This document shows positions 3,247 to 11,908 of a stretch of 64,000 bases of DNA, piece after piece. Below the pieces are notes generated by a model. The model ran no database searches. It was not told the origin of the DNA and saw nothing but the letters and a program-made list of their open reading frames with translations. The stretch is from Shouchella oshimensis (GTDB lineage: Bacteria > Bacillota > Bacilli > Bacillales > Bacillaceae_D), in NCBI RefSeq assembly GCF_002019765.1, contig NZ_KV917380.1:3364576-3428575 (forward strand), in the 5' to 3' direction. The first letter of the stretch is position 1, and each line of letters begins with the position of its first letter. The position numbers were made by a program, and so were the translations under genes.

Positions 3247-3274
3247 AAAAAGTAGCAAATCCGCTACTTTTTTT
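3245..3274. terminator. bidirectional intrinsic terminator
   Basis: A hairpin AAAGTAGC / GCTACTTT flanked by an A run on one side and a T run on the other sits between the convergent cupin and deformylase genes, so it can serve both. Confidence 0.85.
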
Positions 3275-4529
3275 GTGTGTTACACCAACGTACCATAAAG
3301 GATAAAAGGGATTTCGTGTACATAATCAGTTCGTCTATGTCAATTTTTTCATTTACTGCATGGGCGTTGGCTAATGTTCCCGGTCCGTATAAAATCGTTG
3401 GTATACCATAAGCCGCTAACCACCCGCCATCTGTCACAGTCGGTGACATATCGACCTTTGGTTGCTCTTTAAAGACCGCTTCATGCGCTTCTGAAACGAC
3501 TGAAAACCCTGGATGCTTTTCATCAACAGAGAACGCTGGAAACACTTCTCCTCGATCAACAATCATTGACTCTCCACCCCACTCAAATTGTGGTAGATGA
3601 TCACGTAACCAAACATCTCCTTTTGCTACCGCTAGAAGATGTGTTTCAATTTCTTTTGTTACCTCTTCAATCGACTCATTTGGATAAAAATGAACCGTAA
3701 TCCATAAACGGCATTCATCCGCAATAAATGCAGGGTGCCTTCCTCCTTCAATCACCGCAGGATTAATGGTGTTTGTCCCTGACGGAAATCCAGGATACGA
3801 TTTTGTAATTGCCCAATGTCGCTCTAACTCTTGTAAAGCTGTAATCAGCTTTGCCATTTTTTCAATGGCACTCGCCCCATTTACACCACCCCCAGCATGA
3901 ATAAGCTGGCGCCTTGTCCCGTCGTGATGCGTAGTTGGGCTTTTAATCGTAATCCACCCAGTTATGACACCACCCTGACCTTGAATCGAACAGTGACTCG
4001 TATCAGCTACGATGGCATAATCTGCTTTATACCCCCGTTCACAGCATTGCTTTGTCCCTGCTTCCCCTACTTCTTCTCCGATAACCGACTGTAAAATAAC
4101 GTCCCCTTTTAATTCAACGCCATGGTCATAAGCTAGCTTTAACGCAAACAAACAGGCAGCAAGTCCGCCTTTCATATCTGCAGCACCACGACCATAAATC
4201 GACCGATCTTTTACTTCTGCAGTAAAAGGGGAGGTATCCCATTCTTCATCTTCTTCGACAGCAGCCACGTCAACATGTCCATTTAAGATTAAACTTTGAA
4301 AGGCCTCCCTGTCTGTTCCTTTTAACGTTCCGACAACATTCGGGTCACCTTCATATACATCCCACTGATCAATCGACATCCCCATTTCTTTTAAATAATT
4401 GGCAATATACGTTTGAATGGCTACTGTATTTCGTGCTGGTGGTGCTGGTGTTTGAAATGCAATTAACGCTTTCACTAGTTCAATAAGCTCGTCCTCGCGC
4501 ATGTCCACTTGATCCATTAGTTCGTTCAT
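3264..4529 (-). CDS. ylmB: M20-family deacylase, probable formylaminopyrimidine deformylase (YlmB-like)
   Basis: This 421-residue M20 metallopeptidase-fold enzyme shows the two-metal ligands in order: LNGHVDVA (His), ADMKGGLAA (Asp), GEEVGEAG (catalytic Glu pair), ADTSHC (Asp) and a C-terminal GPGTLANAHAVNE (His). Family members include ArgE/DapE deacylases and YlmB, which removes the formyl group from N-formyl-4-amino-5-aminomethyl-2-methylpyrimidine during salvage of degraded thiamine. The specific call rests on the TPP riboswitch directly upstream, which ties the gene to thiamine metabolism. The ATG at 4529 is chosen because AAGGAGG stands nine bases before it. It is a single-gene transcription unit. 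Confidence 0.82.
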   Translation of the reverse strand: MNELMDQVDMREDELIELVKALIAFQTPAPPARNTVAIQTYIANYLKEMGMSIDQWDVYEGDPNVVGTLKGTDREAFQSLILNGHVDVAAVEEDEEWDTSPFTAEVKDRSIYGRGAADMKGGLAACLFALKLAYDHGVELKGDVILQSVIGEEVGEAGTKQCCERGYKADYAIVADTSHCSIQGQGGVITGWITIKSPTTHHDGTRRQLIHAGGGVNGASAIEKMAKLITALQELERHWAITKSYPGFPSGTNTINPAVIEGGRHPAFIADECRLWITVHFYPNESIEEVTKEIETHLLAVAKGDVWLRDHLPQFEWGGESMIVDRGEVFPAFSVDEKHPGFSVVSEAHEAVFKEQPKVDMSPTVTDGGWLAAYGIPTILYGPGTLANAHAVNEKIDIDELIMYTKSLLSFMVRWCNTQKK

Positions 4530-4547
4530 TTTTCTCAGCCTCCTTAA

Positions 4548-4580
4548 ATAAAAAAACACTCCTTAATGAAAAGAAGTGTT
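4548..4580 (-). terminator. expression-platform terminator of the TPP riboswitch
   Basis: On the minus strand AACACT, a short loop and AGTGTT are followed by a run of seven T, between the aptamer and the gene's ribosome binding site. This fits transcription attenuation when TPP is bound. Confidence 0.7.
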
Positions 4581-4599
4581 GAACAGAACATACCTATTG

Positions 4600-4690
4600 C
4601 TCAACCACTTCCCTCCGCTAGCATCATCTAGATCAGGTTTATAAGGGTTAAGACTTCATCGTCTCTCTCAGCATGACGCACCCCTAGTGG
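4600..4690 (-). promoter_or_regulatory. TPP riboswitch (THI element)
   Basis: The minus strand contains the conserved THI-box blocks in order: GGGGTGCGTC, CTGAGAGAGAC, ACCCTTATAAACCTGATCTA and GATGCTAGCGGAGGGAAG. These are the pyrimidine- and pyrophosphate-sensing helices of the thiamine pyrophosphate aptamer. A terminator follows before the YlmB-like gene. Confidence 0.93.
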
Positions 4691-4823
4691 TAGGTGTATG
4701 TAGTTCGTTTGCGGTATTCTCTTCCCTAGTGTACCAAAACAACAACTCTTTTCACATCTATTTAACCCTCGCATCGAACTTACAGGCTATAACTCATTCC
4801 GCTAAATAATTTCAAACTTTTAC

Positions 4824-6563: not shown

Positions 6564-8489
6564 TTATTCCTCCTCTAACCATATACCATCTAAATGCTTG
6601 CGACTCTGATCATTTTTCACTTTCCGATAGGTTTTGCTTTTAAAGATAATATCGAAGTCATAGTCTGCAGGGTACAGCTCTTCCGCTGAAATATGCAACG
6701 TTAAGCGCTTATGGTTAATGATTCGCTTGTCGTCCTTCACTTGCACGATATAGTTTCCTTTTTCATCAGGGCCTTTATAAATGATTGCCGTTTCATTCGT
6801 TGCTTGAATCGTTACATTATCCCCTTGTTGGAATACCTCCACATCAGAAGAGAGGGTTTTCTTCTGTTTGTTTGCGTGACGATTGAAAATAACTTGTTTA
6901 CGAAACGCATCGCTTTGAAGGGCCTCAGCAGAAAAACGATCTTGATAGGAACGCTTCTGTCCATATGAGAGTTGATGTGCTTCCTCAACGATACTTGGAT
7001 GTAAGCCTAATTTAAGTGCGATTTCAAAAGCCTGACTCTTCCCACTTTCACCGATTAATAATCGATACGTTGGTTGTAAGCTTTCTACATCAAATTCCAT
7101 TGAGCCGTTAATGAAGCCGTCTGTATCATCGGCAAAAGTTTTCATTTCGCTATAGTGGGTCGTAGCGAAAAGTGTTGAACCCTTTTTATATAACTGGTTT
7201 AGAATCGTAATGGCTAAACCCATTCCTTCATTTGGATCAGTACCAGAACCAAGTTCGTCAAGCAAGACAAGAGATCGATCATTGGCTTCTCGTAATATCT
7301 CTATAATGGAAACCATTCTTGAACTAAATGTGCTTAAATTATCCTCAATACTTTGCCCATCACCAATATCCACAAAAATGGATTGGAAGATGCCGATCTG
7401 ACTACCTTTTTCTGCAGGAATCAGCAGCCCTGCCTGAGCCATTGCAGTCAATAACCCAACGGTTTTCAACGTGACGGTTTTCCCACCTGTATTCGGTCCA
7501 GTAATTACTAACGCTCGATCAACTGCTCCACCAAAGGTTAACGTCAACGGCACTGCTTTCTGCCCTAAGGCTGGGTGTCTAGCACGTACGAGCTTAATGG
7601 TTCGATCGTTGGATAAAGAAGGTTTTATTCCTTCTATTTCCCGACAATATTTTGCCTTAGCGAACAACACATCGTACTCATGCATGACATCCATTGCAAT
7701 TGAAATGGTCTGTTCTTGTGCTAGTAACGCTTCTGTTAGTTCAAATAGGATTCGTTCTACTTCTGCCTCTTCTGCATACGTGTACATACTTACTTCTTCT
7801 TGAATATCACTCACTTCAGCCGGTTCAATAAACAAAGTTGAACCAGAAGCGGATGTGTCCAGAACTGTACCGTTTACTTTATTACGGTATTCTTTTTTTA
7901 TTGAAAGAACGTATCGCCCTTGGCGTGTGGAGACCATCTTATCTTGCAAGAAGCTTTTGTATTTCCCTCCATTTGCAAGATGCTCCACTTTCGTTTTTAA
8001 TCGTTCTAAAGCCACTTTCTTTTGACGACGAAGGTAACTCAATTCTTTTGACGCATACTCATCTACTTGACCATTACGAATGGCAGAAGTAAGTTGTTCC
8101 TCTACTGAGGATAGATCATCAATCGAAAACGCATAGCTACTAATTAGCGGTGCAATCTCTTGTTTATCATTCATAAACCGCTTTAATTTGCTACAGTGTT
8201 CTAAAAACGATATCACTCTTGTAAATTGGTCCGCACGAATAAACAATCCTTTCTTTGCTTGCATAATCATTTGGGCAATATCATCCACAACGTGAATAGG
8301 AACACTGCCGCTACGTGTTAGAATACGCATAGCCTCTTCAATTTCAGTCATCTTATGCGCCATTTGACTTTGATTTACTAGGGGCGTCATCTGAAGAATT
8401 GTTTCACGCGCCCGATCCATACGGGTTTGTTCAGCAATGTCTTTAAGGACATCGTAAAATCCTATCGCTTCTAAAGTTTGTTGTTTCAT
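6564..8489 (-). CDS. MutS2-like ATPase with KOW-like segment, no Smr domain
   Basis: The 641-residue protein starts like MutS2 (helical core and lever regions) and has the MutS-family ABC ATPase: Walker A GPNTGGKT near residue 335, signature region around STFSSRM, Walker B LVLLDELGSGTDP and the ATTHYSEMK switch. After the ATPase and a helical clamp region comes a small beta segment (GDNVTI...KGNYIVQV) resembling the KOW domain of MutS2. The C-terminal Smr nuclease domain is missing; full MutS2 is about 785 residues. Bacillus MutS2 acts on collided ribosomes, for which the ATPase and KOW parts are relevant. The upstream leader with a tiny ORF and terminator suggests induction by translation stress. 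A role in DNA recombination remains possible. Confidence 0.85.
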   Translation of the reverse strand: MKQQTLEAIGFYDVLKDIAEQTRMDRARETILQMTPLVNQSQMAHKMTEIEEAMRILTRSGSVPIHVVDDIAQMIMQAKKGLFIRADQFTRVISFLEHCSKLKRFMNDKQEIAPLISSYAFSIDDLSSVEEQLTSAIRNGQVDEYASKELSYLRRQKKVALERLKTKVEHLANGGKYKSFLQDKMVSTRQGRYVLSIKKEYRNKVNGTVLDTSASGSTLFIEPAEVSDIQEEVSMYTYAEEAEVERILFELTEALLAQEQTISIAMDVMHEYDVLFAKAKYCREIEGIKPSLSNDRTIKLVRARHPALGQKAVPLTLTFGGAVDRALVITGPNTGGKTVTLKTVGLLTAMAQAGLLIPAEKGSQIGIFQSIFVDIGDGQSIEDNLSTFSSRMVSIIEILREANDRSLVLLDELGSGTDPNEGMGLAITILNQLYKKGSTLFATTHYSEMKTFADDTDGFINGSMEFDVESLQPTYRLLIGESGKSQAFEIALKLGLHPSIVEEAHQLSYGQKRSYQDRFSAEALQSDAFRKQVIFNRHANKQKKTLSSDVEVFQQGDNVTIQATNETAIIYKGPDEKGNYIVQVKDDKRIINHKRLTLHISAEELYPADYDFDIIFKSKTYRKVKNDQSRKHLDGIWLEEE

Positions 8490-8552
8490 TTAGGTTTCCT
8501 CCTTTTATTGCTGTATAAGGAACCATGGGAACGATTATTCAAGAGACAACAA

Positions 8553-8588
8553 AGAGACCGCTCTGAACAATCGTTCACAGCGGCCTCT
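8553..8588 (-). terminator. attenuator terminator in the MutS2-like leader
   Basis: A ten-pair GC-rich stem (AGAGGCCGCT / AGCGGTCTCT) is extended by an inner TGAAC/GTTCA stem, followed on the minus strand by TTTGTTGTCTCTT. It lies between the leader ORF and the MutS2-like start, so it can abort transcription of the gene. Confidence 0.65.
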
Positions 8589-8589
8589 T

Positions 8590-8745
8590 AGAAAAGGACC
8601 TACCTATTGTAGGTAGACTTCAAGTAGGACAACTCTTACTAGTAAACGTGTTCTTAACTCCTTGAAATGCCATGACAAAATAAGCGTCACCAGTACGCTG
8701 AAAAATCGCATTTCAAGCTATCCAATTCATGGATTAGTTAAGAAC
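8590..8745 (-). promoter_or_regulatory. structured leader RNA with alternative stems
   Basis: Several perfect complementary pairs occur on the minus-strand transcript. Ten bases overlapping the end of the leader ORF (8736-8745) pair with 8650-8659. Nine bases at 8708-8716 pair with 8662-8670. AGCGT pairs with ACGCT inside it (8683-8699), and a CTACCTA hairpin lies at 8600-8616. Because the first stem uses leader-ORF sequence, a ribosome stalled there would change the fold and could control the terminator at 8553-8588. Confidence 0.6.
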
Positions 8746-8757
8746 CACCAGATACAT
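8734..8757 (-). CDS. leader peptide MYLVVLN
   Basis: A seven-codon ORF (MYLVVLN, stop TAA) begins nine bases after AAAGGAG, a strong ribosome binding site, and about 45 bases after the promoter. Short leader ORFs with a strong site in front of a foldable leader are the hallmark of antibiotic-inducible attenuation in Bacillota. No protein function of its own is expected; its translation would be the sensor. Confidence 0.6.
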   Translation of the reverse strand: MYLVVLN

Positions 8758-8800
8758 AAAAGTTGTCTCCTTTATACGTGCAATTATTTACTACACACCT

Positions 8801-8830
8801 ACTATAGGTCTTTTCTCATGTGGAAGTCAA
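8801..8830 (-). promoter_or_regulatory. sigma-A promoter of the MutS2-like transcript
   Basis: TTGACT (8830-8825) and TATAGT (8806-8801) are separated by 18 bases on the minus strand. Transcription would start near 8794, upstream of the leader ORF. The promoter lies just after the response regulator stop codon. Confidence 0.7.
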
Positions 8831-8853: not shown

Positions 8854-9543
8854 TTAAACAGATTCAATTTTGTAGCCGACTCCCCAGACGGTTTGAATGA
8901 CTTTATACCCTAACGCTTTTTCAAGCTTGTCTCGCAAGTTGCTTATATGCACCATCACAGTGTTATTTGAATCATAGTACTTTTCCTTCCAAACGCTTTG
9001 AAAAATAGTCTCTGAGTCAAACACTTGTCCCGCTTGACTAGCAAGGAGATATAATATATCAAATTCTTTAGAGGTTAATTTCAGTTCATTTCCATGCACT
9101 CTAGCTTGATATTTCTTTTTATCAATGGTTAAATCGCCTAACTCAAGGATGCCACCTTCTTTTGGAGCGCCGTGATAGTAGTACGCTCTTCGTACTAACG
9201 CCTTCACACGAACAACGAGCTCAAGAATGTTAAAAGGCTTAATAACATAATCATCAGCACCTGTCATAATTCCTGTAATTTTATCCATATCTTCTGATTT
9301 AGCACTAATCATCAGGATAGGTAGACTATGGCTGCGCCTGACGGTTTGGCAAAATTCCAATCCATTCATTTCAGGCATCATCACATCTAATACGATTAAA
9401 TCAATAGGATGCTGTTCCAGTTGTTTCATTGCTTCCACACCATTGCTAGCCATAATTGTGTTGAAGCCTTCATTTTTCAGAGAATAGTTAATGAGGTTTG
9501 CTATGTCTTGGTCGTCATCTACAATTAAAATTTGTTTAGACAA
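8854..9543 (-). CDS. OmpR-family response regulator (VanR-like)
   Basis: A 229-residue two-domain regulator. The receiver domain has the acidic pocket (IVDDDQD), the phospho-acceptor Asp in DLIVLDVMMPEMNG near residue 53 and the KPF lysine. The C-terminal winged helix contains LTSKEFDILYLLA and the recognition region VMVHISNLRDKLE with a final WGVGYKIE. The start appears to be TTG at 9543, with an AAGGATG site about a dozen bases upstream. It follows the sensor kinase after a 142-base gap and forms a two-component pair with it. The nearby D,D-carboxypeptidase is a plausible target, suggesting a cell-wall signal. Confidence 0.9.
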   Translation of the reverse strand: MSKQILIVDDDQDIANLINYSLKNEGFNTIMASNGVEAMKQLEQHPIDLIVLDVMMPEMNGLEFCQTVRRSHSLPILMISAKSEDMDKITGIMTGADDYVIKPFNILELVVRVKALVRRAYYYHGAPKEGGILELGDLTIDKKKYQARVHGNELKLTSKEFDILYLLASQAGQVFDSETIFQSVWKEKYYDSNNTVMVHISNLRDKLEKALGYKVIQTVWGVGYKIESV

Positions 9544-9685
9544 TGCGGCTCACATCCTTTTTTACGAGTTGATGGATATCGTCTACAAGCACTCCATACG
9601 ATTCGATAGACTCGGTCGTTCGTAAGGGTTCATATATTTTTGTCCTCTCCATATAGGAGGTGTTCCTTCGTCTATGAGAGAATCT

Positions 9686-10810
9686 TTACGCTTCCTTATC
9701 CATAATAGGCAAGGTGATGAAAAATGCCGTTCCTTCTGAATTACTCGTTACATCAATTTCACCTTCATGTAGCTCAACAATGTTTTTTGCAATGGCTAAC
9801 CCTAATCCAGAACCTCCAGTGTCTTTTGAACGAGATTGGTCCACACGGTAAAACCTTTCAAAAATAAATGGGATCTCAGACTGAGCAATAGGTTCCCCGT
9901 AATTTCGAATTTCCATTTCTGTTTCTTTCTCTCTTTGGTGAAGAGTAATATCAATAAACGGTGCATCCGCTCCATACTTGATTGCATTACCGATAATGTT
10001 TTCAAATACCCGAGAAAGCTTTTCTCCATCCACATATTGCTTCACTTCTTGATCCGGAAGATTCATCCTAAAGCTCAATTTCGCTTCTGCCATTTGTAAA
10101 TGAAAATGGGAAGCGATTTGCTTGATCACTTCTTTTAGGTCGATGTAGTCTTTATTTAACAGTAACTTAGGGTTTTTCGTCCGAATGTATTCAAATAAGT
10201 CGTTAACCATTGTGTTCATTTGCTTCGCTTTATCATAAGCGATGTCTGTAAAATAGCGTAAGGTAACTTCATCCTTATATTGATCTCTCTCGATTAAATC
10301 GAGGTAGCCCATGATAGAAGTAAGAGGTGTTCGTAAGTCATGGGATACATTTGTAATCAATTCTGTTTTTGATTGCTCAGCAATTCTTTCTTCATGTACA
10401 GTGGTTTCTAACCTTTCTATTAATTGGTTCACTTGCCTAGCTAATTGACCTAATTCATGATTTTCTTTTACCTCGATCCGTTGAGAAAGCTCGCCACTTG
10501 CCATCTGCCCAAGATCCTTTTCAATCTTCACGAAATAATGTATGTACCTGTGTCCAATGACCACTATAGATAAGACAATTCCAAGAAAGAATAATACATT
10601 TATTAAATTGAATAATTCATAGATATAAAAGTTCAGTGTTGCGTTAAAAGCCGCTGCAAATCGATCAAACACATTCACATAATAATGTAAGTTCGACACC
10701 TGGTACGTAAAGTAAAGTCCAGCAATAGCCACACTTGTAATAAACCCACTTATAAATAACAACATTACCATCTTAAAAAGTAAAGCCACATACCGACTAT
10801 CCAACGCCAT
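9686..10810 (-). CDS. sensor histidine kinase (VanS-like)
   Basis: The 374-residue kinase has two membrane segments near residues 13-35 and 65-86 with a short extracellular loop. These are followed by a HAMP region, a dimerisation and phospho-acceptor box (NVSHDLRTPLTS) and an ATPase domain with GNAIKYG, FERFYRVDQSR and GGSGLGLAIAK. It would phosphorylate the adjacent regulator in response to an envelope signal. The ATG at 10810 sits very close to GGGAGG; a TTG six bases further in (10804) has better spacing and may be the true start. Confidence 0.9.
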   Translation of the reverse strand: MALDSRYVALLFKMVMLLFISGFITSVAIAGLYFTYQVSNLHYYVNVFDRFAAAFNATLNFYIYELFNLINVLFFLGIVLSIVVIGHRYIHYFVKIEKDLGQMASGELSQRIEVKENHELGQLARQVNQLIERLETTVHEERIAEQSKTELITNVSHDLRTPLTSIMGYLDLIERDQYKDEVTLRYFTDIAYDKAKQMNTMVNDLFEYIRTKNPKLLLNKDYIDLKEVIKQIASHFHLQMAEAKLSFRMNLPDQEVKQYVDGEKLSRVFENIIGNAIKYGADAPFIDITLHQREKETEMEIRNYGEPIAQSEIPFIFERFYRVDQSRSKDTGGSGLGLAIAKNIVELHEGEIDVTSNSEGTAFFITLPIMDKEA

Positions 10811-10935: not shown

Positions 10936-11796
10936 TTATTCTCTGTCAAGAGAAGCTTCTAAAGGAGGACGATACGGCTCACCAAAAGCAAACGATAAGA
11001 GCTTTTTTGTTTCTACAAATCGTGCCTGATCGTTTTCGGTTCCTAATACAACGGTTATAAACCGTTGCCCATTTCTGCTTGCCGTTCCAACAAAGCAATA
11101 TCCCGCTTCATTTGTATAGCCTGTCTTAAAGCCATCCAACCCATCAAAAGCAAGGTCTGATTTGGTTAACATATGATTGGTTGTATGAACCCGTTCACCT
11201 GAAAATAACAGCGTATGAGAAGACTTGGCTGTATCTTGCAGAACCTCAGGAAATCGAGTAATGATCAACTGCGCCAACACAGCAATATCACGGGCACTCA
11301 TTTGATTGCTTTGTGAATTTAACTCTGTTAGTCCTGTTGCGTTAACAAACGTAGATTTGGTTAACCCCATTTCTTCCGCCTTTTCATTCATCTTTTTCAC
11401 GAACTCTTTTTCACTATCGGCTAAATGTTCGGCTAACGCAACCGTTGCATTATTCGCAGAGGGGAGTAGCATCGCCATATATAAATCATGAATGGGAACA
11501 ACATCTCCTTCTGATAAAGAAATGTTTGCCCCTTCTTTCGATGCTGCCTCACCACTTATTTGAACAGGGTCACTCCAATCAATAATACCCTGTTCGATTG
11601 ATTCTAATATGAGATACTCTGTCATCATTTTTGATATACTTGCAACAGGCACAGCCTCATCAATACCTGAGTCGATTACTAATTTATCCTCATTTACATC
11701 TAGTAACAATGTTTTTTCAGCTGTTGAAAAGAAAAAGGAATACGTTAGTAACACTAAGCTAATAGGAATTCCAATTGCCAGCCATTTTTTTCTCAT
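10936..11796 (-). CDS. D-alanyl-D-alanine carboxypeptidase, PBP5-type (S11)
   Basis: A serine-type penicillin-binding protein of 286 residues. An N-terminal membrane anchor (residues 5-23) leads into the S11 motifs: SISKMM (SxxK, nucleophile Ser), SAN in PSANNATVALAEHL, and KTG in GFKTGYTNEAG. It trims the terminal D-Ala of peptidoglycan stem peptides outside the membrane. It is shorter than DacA (about 400 residues) because the C-terminal beta domain and amphipathic anchor are absent. The ATG at 11796 follows AAGGAG by nine bases. It lies upstream of the VanSR-like pair on the same strand, so it may be regulated by them. Confidence 0.88.
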   Translation of the reverse strand: MRKKWLAIGIPISLVLLTYSFFFSTAEKTLLLDVNEDKLVIDSGIDEAVPVASISKMMTEYLILESIEQGIIDWSDPVQISGEAASKEGANISLSEGDVVPIHDLYMAMLLPSANNATVALAEHLADSEKEFVKKMNEKAEEMGLTKSTFVNATGLTELNSQSNQMSARDIAVLAQLIITRFPEVLQDTAKSSHTLLFSGERVHTTNHMLTKSDLAFDGLDGFKTGYTNEAGYCFVGTASRNGQRFITVVLGTENDQARFVETKKLLSFAFGEPYRPPLEASLDRE

Positions 11797-11908
11797 CTTC
11801 GTCAACTCCTTCAAAAAGAAGTCTACCCACTAAACGATAAGAAGATAAAAAGAAAACCTTAAGAATCATAAAGAATGGTTTTAGGAAGAGTGTCTACACT
11901 CCTACAAC

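Follow-up and report, generated by a model that had tools for sequence, protein, structure and literature searches.

Introduction

The leaders of vmlR in B. subtilis and of tet(M) in Tn916-type elements (RF02864) are, together with HflXr of Listeria and MutS2 of B. subtilis, the described systems closest to the locus analyzed here. According to the published description, the vmlR leader contains a uORF within the base of a stem, an intrinsic terminator and, after the uORF stem and ahead of the terminator, the sequence TTATTT, which is a NusG-dependent pause motif (PMC9226507). For tet(M), tetracycline-responsive attenuation has been reported. ABC-F resistance genes are described as being commonly controlled by such uORFs (PMC10201436), and one uORF of E. 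coli reportedly senses ribosome-targeting drugs of several classes, tetracycline being sensed via stalling at the start codon (PMC12121999). HflXr, which is homologous to a ribosome-splitting factor and is preceded by a uORF attenuator, is reported as a case in which such a homologue can be a resistance factor (PMC6310831).

The preliminary description of the DNA studied here held that Bacillus MutS2 acts on collided ribosomes, in agreement with the report that B. subtilis MutS2 splits stalled ribosomes via its ATPase and is recruited by its KOW and Smr domains (PMC10897456). According to the same report, B. subtilis cells without mutS2 are hypersensitive to chloramphenicol, tetracycline and erythromycin.

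We analyzed a stretch of 64,000 nucleotides of Shouchella oshimensis, referred to as the window, in which a gene encoding a MutS2-like ATPase without Smr is preceded by an attenuator-type leader. The leader resembles that of vmlR in its uORF within a stem base, its likely TTATTT pause motif and its terminator-like hairpins; the vmlR leader differs, by its published description, in having the uORF MIN and in the antiterminator of its model (PMC9226507). By covariance model it is the same RNA as the tet(M) leader, which in Rfam carries the name of an sRNA and precedes a ribosome-protection GTPase gene. HflXr provides the parallel of a splitting-factor homologue under a uORF attenuator, but it is an HflX-type protein unrelated to the MutS2-like protein, and its leader peptide is of the RLR type (PMC6310831). 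In our best reading, the locus encodes a counterpart of HflXr, namely a MutS2 paralogue that would be induced by drugs or stalling; its drug induction and ribosome splitting are inferred. Neither the leader RNA family nor the Smr-less paralogue appeared in any title or abstract of the literature searched, which covered few subscription papers.

Results

A leader with a mini-ORF precedes the MutS2-like gene

The features of the locus are listed in Table 1. The promoter proposed in the preliminary description is present as a sequence, but does not by itself stand out from shuffled DNA, while the proposed leader ORF was confirmed; it encodes MYLVVLN and has a good ribosome site. The leader folds far more strongly than its shuffles (z -7.1), and its RNA element has a single match in its own genome. 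An Rfam search of the window leader at the gathering score gave no family, RF02864 included, and a search of three MutS2-like loci (L005, L024 and L064) at a relaxed E-value gave nothing convincing.

Table 1. Positions of the leader elements and of the MutS2-like gene in the window
Feature	Position	Strand	Basis or remark
Promoter-like TTGACT-18-TATAGT	8801..8830	minus	not above shuffles by itself
Ribosome site of mini-ORF, AAAGGAG	8767..8773	minus	sequence
Leader mini-ORF MYLVVLN, 7 codons, including stop	8734..8757	minus	sequence; homologues
P1 5' strand GTTCTTAAC(T), last codons of mini-ORF and first base of stop	8736..8745	minus	folds; pairs
P2 hairpin, immediately 3' of mini-ORF stop	8720..8734	minus	fold
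P3, long covarying arm	8661..8717	minus	folds; covariation
TTATTT, NusG-type TTNTTT pause motif in P3 3' half	8678..8683	minus	TTNTTT enrichment in 80 leaders
P1 3' strand (A)GTTAAGAAC	8650..8659	minus	folds; covariation
First terminator-like hairpin, tail CCTTTTC	8598..8618	minus	
Strong GC-rich terminator-like hairpin, T tract weak in this species	8552..8589	minus	-26.4 kcal/mol
MutS2-like ATPase gene, 641 aa, without Smr	6564..8489	minus	
KOW-like fold and conserved C-terminal tail, in place of the MutS2 Smr	6567..6857	minus	alignment of 24; fold

The gene encodes a MutS2 paralogue without Smr

The 641-aa protein scored 582.1 bits with the MutS2 model TIGR01069 (cut-off 400), with the match reaching model position 519 of 790. 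Pfam detected the ATPase domain alone (PF00488, 123.8 bits), which is an ATPase core with Walker motifs and in which the sequence GPNTGGKT is invariant across 41 sequences; no mismatch-recognition domain was found. The C-terminal part has a KOW-like fold, so that by its fold the protein has a KOW/SH3 domain; the first structural match was the MutS2 KOW domain 8r55, tied with other KOW/SH3-like folds. An alignment of 24 sequences revealed a conserved tail, YPxDYDFDIIFKSKEYRK...RKH. Smr, which was sought by Pfam scans and by alignment with the MutS2 of the same genome, is absent, and the 641-aa protein is therefore a MutS2 paralogue and not a full MutS2. Profiles, fold and alignment thus agree with the MutS2-like gene that had been described as keeping ATPase and KOW-like parts but lacking Smr. 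A lysine aminomutase reactivase, KamC (NF052383), was rejected as the identity of the protein because its score of 207.3 bits lies under the curated cut-off of 300.

The structure shares with B. subtilis MutS2 the fold of core, clamp and ATPase as well as the KOW-like fold. The protein differs from B. subtilis MutS2 in lacking Smr and the long stretch between ATPase and KOW, in its new C-terminal tail and in its attenuator-type leader. Of the KOW contact residues named for B. subtilis MutS2, which we mapped via the MutS2 of the same genome, the Q and K are kept and the I and L are changed.

The genome encodes three such proteins: the MutS2-like one of 641 aa; an 813-aa full MutS2, in which Pfam additionally finds Smr and the MutS2-associated SH3/KOW domain; and an 871-aa protein of MutS1 length. 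Such a trio is present in 10 of 10 genomes picked for having the MutS2-like gene, although in one of them, G394, a stop interrupts the MutS2-like frame. On the question of whether the MutS2-like protein is derived from MutS2 or is a sister of it, its tree support is 67/90; the label "MutS1" in this tree is from length and distance only. At L134 / L199, a MutS2-like gene is likewise interrupted by a stop, with the leader RNA retained.

The MutS2-like protein shares its fold with MutS, and MutS2 has been described in the literature, as far as consulted, as an anti-recombination protein. The MutS2-like protein might accordingly act on DNA, in recombination or repair, with the leader merely tying the gene to stress. 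We consider this unlikely given the retained KOW-like fold, the lack of a mismatch-recognition domain in Pfam and the occurrence of the same RNA before ribosome-protection genes (see below).

The leader forms a conserved and covarying three-way junction

We compared the leaders of 80 loci, the best among 153 homologous ones; the nearest named record among these loci is from Shouchella miscanthi (93%). The mini-ORF is present as a heptapeptide fitting the loose pattern MxxxVLN at 78/80 loci. Locus L032 has a 6-aa version, and L055 has just 245 nt of upstream sequence. The final three codons are GTT CTT AAC, with exceptions seen at three of the 80 loci (L006, L009 and L045). In L006, AAC is changed to AAT together with a change of the partner strand from GTT to ATT, and L045 is also altered on both strands. 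These two-strand changes point to conservation of the pairing rather than of the peptide.

Unconstrained folds of the 80 leader cores gave a three-way junction in most cases. In stem P1 the last codons of the mini-ORF pair with GTTAAGAAC, P2 follows the stop codon, and P3 is long and variable in its letters. A covariance model seeded from four sequences (R1) matches once in the window and at 79/80 homologous loci, the sole exception being the locus without upstream DNA. Over the 79 distinct rows, 94.3% of the cells are paired and covariation is 0.414, versus 0.101 for shuffled and at most 0.051 for slid alignments, as calculated from an alignment that was fitted to the structure and has one row misaligned in P1. 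In alignment A4 a one-base shift of the L032 row in P1 gives rise to some spurious double changes; genuine P1 changes are those of L006 and L045 and of the tet and other leaders. RNAalifold recovered P1 and P2 as well as the lower part of P3 from the structure-fitted alignment, and P1 only from a plain MAFFT alignment (A2), because P3 was misaligned in the latter, a problem that the four-sequence covariance model solved.

Distribution of the leader among MutS2-like genes

Two further models were built, R2 from MutS2-like leaders only, which was run on 398 Bacilli genomes, and R3, which also includes leaders of other genes and was run on 398 genomes of the phylum. A protein profile of the KOW-like domain plus tail detected the MutS2-like gene in 99/398 Bacilli genomes at E<=1e-5; the match reaches E<=1e-20 in 65 of these. 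The RNA lies at the right distance and on the right strand in 59 of the 65 genomes with strong matches. Among the 34 genomes with weak matches, 18 of which were searched with R3 and the remainder with R2 only, there is a confident RNA match before the MutS2-like gene in G376 only and a marginal one in G155. Within the genus, the RNA was found in 11/13 genomes. One genome of the genus has a second, weaker copy of 40 bits (G787:C94:690-835).

We then inspected 15 upstream stretches lacking an RNA match at E<=0.001. Eight of them contain a short ORF and a ribosome site with diverged letters (for example MSAVVVLN, MSGSVVLR and MSVVGSK); one of these, L232, was counted by its ORF, without its stem. 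Five of the eight are from strong-match genomes without an RNA match, of which there are six in all (G369 is not among the 15 stretches), and have the same layout. When the 15 stretches were searched with R3 in a small search, seven matched at E<0.01. By eye, L228, L229 and L241 have a similar leader, L230 and L234 are ambiguous, and L235 and L242 have no recognizable leader ORF. Homologues lacking the leader ORF or terminator had been named beforehand as evidence against regulation of this kind; the 80 close loci contain none that refutes it, but 2/15 of the distant stretches lack a recognizable ORF.

The same RNA is located upstream of ribosome-protection genes

At E<=0.001, R2 gave 60 matches in 53/398 Bacilli genomes. 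The genes following them are 43 MutS2-like, 12 BpsA, 3 Tet(M), 1 GNAT and 1 MFS; the names are from profiles for examples and from reading for the rest, and 19/43 MutS2-like genes were assigned by position. R3 matched in 23/398 genomes of the phylum, and its 19 new loci comprise 10 MutS2-like genes, 2 Tet-type, 3 ABC-F and 1 APH-type gene, 2 ABC exporter pairs and 1 glycosyltransferase-like gene (Pfam). The match before the latter (L127) lies 322 nt upstream and may be due to chance. With NCBIfam models, L138 belongs to the Tet M/W/O/S family (1284.7 versus a curated cut-off of 1100) and L139 and L143 to the ribosome-protection ABC-F proteins (447.9 and 500.4 versus 380). In line with the view that leaders of this design precede ribosome-protection genes, the same RNA precedes tet(M) and ABC-F genes. 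Known resistance genes are a minority of the RNA matches (3 Tet among 60), and the link to them rests on the kind of target, not on number.

The 24 non-MutS2 leaders, which had been preselected by the R2 and R3 scans, all match R2 at E<=0.01 (24/24). Scored with this model, 86.0% of their cells are paired, with a covariation of 0.418 versus 0.141 for shuffled and at most 0.121 for slid alignments. The tet(M) leader scores 49.1 bits with R2 and aligns along the whole model, having a mini-ORF (MRQGILK), P1 (ATTCTTAAA/TTTAAGAAT), P2 and P3; in L100 this leader is matched by RF02864, "Enterococcus sRNA 30", at 201 bits. In three leaders located before ABC-F or APH-type genes (L118, L121 and L123), P1 is unchanged and the mini-ORF, MFIRS, is in another frame. 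That peptide and frame vary while P1 stays argues for a general sensor of ribosome stalling. On the same grounds, arrest dependent on a specific peptide, as in macrolide-type leaders, was ruled out as the general rule; it may apply to the MYLVVLN of the window.

Variation of the peptide also bears on the possibility that the leader responds to amino-acid starvation by reading Val, Leu and Asn codons, as in the leaders of classical biosynthetic operons. VLN is indeed near-constant across the leaders of the 80 close loci, but other leaders have other codons (MRQGILK, MSGSVVLR, MSVVGSK and MSESVIN), MFIRS lies in a different frame relative to an unaltered P1, and there is no amino-acid biosynthesis gene among the downstream genes inspected. 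Starvation attenuation is therefore very unlikely, and sensing of stalled ribosomes remains our preferred reading.

Some of the matches have additional neighbours. At L135 and L248, bpsA, encoding a branched polyamine synthase, directly follows the MutS2-like gene, and at other loci a separate copy of this leader RNA stands before bpsA itself. At L140 the gene behind the leader is that of an APH-type phosphotransferase (Pfam), with an ABC-F-like gene coming next, and a weak RNA match of 40.6 bits with the leader VSAVVLS (L254, G216:C1:4968882-4969031) precedes a gene with a marginal APH match.

Terminators, pause motif and the search for an antiterminator

A terminator-like hairpin is present between P1 and the gene in 80/80 leaders, versus 39/80 when each leader was shuffled once, and 78/80 leaders have a hairpin of -15 kcal/mol or lower before the gene. 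The GC-rich terminator noted earlier is upheld as a terminator-like hairpin of the window. Of the 80 leaders, 61 have the motif TTNTTT in the 3' half of P3, where 22.2 are expected, and 19 have it in the 5' half, versus 19.3 expected; in 46 of the 61 leaders it lies 24-28 nt before the 3' strand of P1. Two features of the uORF attenuators of antibiotic resistance genes, a putatively translated mini-ORF overlapping a competing stem and a terminator-like hairpin before the gene, are present, and the mini-ORF in a stem, the pause motif and the terminators agree with the parts of a vmlR-like attenuator.

Folding of the leader in terminated and antiterminated forms, which had been proposed as a check, showed no equilibrium switch on blocking the mini-ORF. 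In equilibrium partition functions the mean pairing of the terminators remained unchanged (0.88 to 0.85 for the first and 0.95 to 0.95 for the last), and it dropped by more than 0.3 for only 3/80 first and 1/80 last terminators. Duplexes between the released segment and a terminator arm outperformed shuffles (p<0.05) for 9/77 first and 8/80 strongest terminators, which is near chance. Folds of truncated transcripts, which had no shuffle baseline, were partly supportive: they gained more than 0.3 for 49/80 first and 36/70 second terminators, and in the window the sequestration of the terminator 5' arm went from 0.03 to 0.73 with the released segment. On these results we do not propose an antiterminator helix as a conserved element. 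With respect to the alternative stems said to use leader-ORF sequence, P1 exists and covaries, but a conserved antiterminator was not found.

A covarying three-way junction with conserved loops also looks like an aptamer, and BpsA genes follow 12/60 R2 matches. These observations would suit a ligand-binding riboswitch or a polyamine sensor in which the mini-ORF is secondary. However, the leaders keep the mini-ORF, its ribosome site and a stop codon within or adjacent to P1 despite changes of the letters, there are ribosome-protection genes among the targets whose kind is known, and the pause motif explains much of the conserved P3 loop. We regard a riboswitch as quite unlikely.

Discussion

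The locus probably consists of a translation-stall-sensing transcription attenuator that controls a MutS2 paralogue acting on stalled ribosomes. RNA polymerase would pause at TTNTTT, giving a ribosome time to load on the mini-ORF. A ribosome that translates through the mini-ORF would allow P1 to close, followed by termination at the terminators, while a ribosome stalled on the mini-ORF by a drug or another stress would prevent P1 from closing and lead to read-through. The resulting MutS2-like protein, with ATPase and KOW-like parts but without the collision-sensing Smr, could then split or clear stalled ribosomes, with collision not needed, in a relation to MutS2 like that of HflXr to HflX. 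By analogy, we propose that the 641-aa protein is a stall-inducible, collision-independent splitting or clearing factor. For the drug- or stall-inducible factor suggested in the preliminary description, the regulatory half is well supported by the conserved ORF, P1 and terminators and by the RNA shared with tet(M) and ABC-F genes, but the switch is not explained by a conserved antiterminator.

The occurrence of the same RNA before genes for resistance to ribosome-targeting drugs, such as tet(M), suggests that the MutS2-like gene encodes a ribosome-stress or drug-tolerance factor. As reported for B. subtilis MutS2, removal of Smr dramatically reduces ribosome binding, which counts against this explanation, while the authors suggest that the contact between KOW and uS10 may allow partial activity without Smr (PMC10897456).

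A broader reading, which we put forward tentatively and which in our view falls somewhat short of probable, is that a ribosome-stress regulon across the phylum is controlled by one widespread RNA that senses translation arrest and has spread horizontally. Besides MutS2-like splitting factors and BpsA, this regulon would comprise protection proteins of the Tet(M) and ABC-F types as well as exporters and enzymes that modify drugs. The MutS2-like proteins would be a new class of intrinsic resistance factors acting by rescue, which split drug-stalled ribosomes independently of collisions, and BpsA would be their partner.

The analysis ties a MutS2 paralogue, present in 65 (strong matches) to 99 (any match) of the 398 sampled Bacilli genomes, to ribosome-drug sensing by means of an RNA. 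The tet(M) leader thereby becomes part of a family that combines a conserved three-way junction with a short mini-ORF and a pause motif. If our reading of the locus is right, the leader RNA by itself would predict new intrinsic ribosome-rescue factors, and branched polyamines would be implicated in the cellular response to arrested translation.

Other features of the window

Upstream of the leader, the region 8854-10810 (minus strand) encodes a response regulator (Pfam) and a sensor kinase, the latter named by reading. A gene resembling those of D-Ala-D-Ala carboxypeptidases, likewise named by reading, is located upstream as well, at 10936-11814. A TPP riboswitch was detected at gathering score at 4593-4695 (minus strand), before a deacylase-like gene at 3264-4559 that was named by reading.
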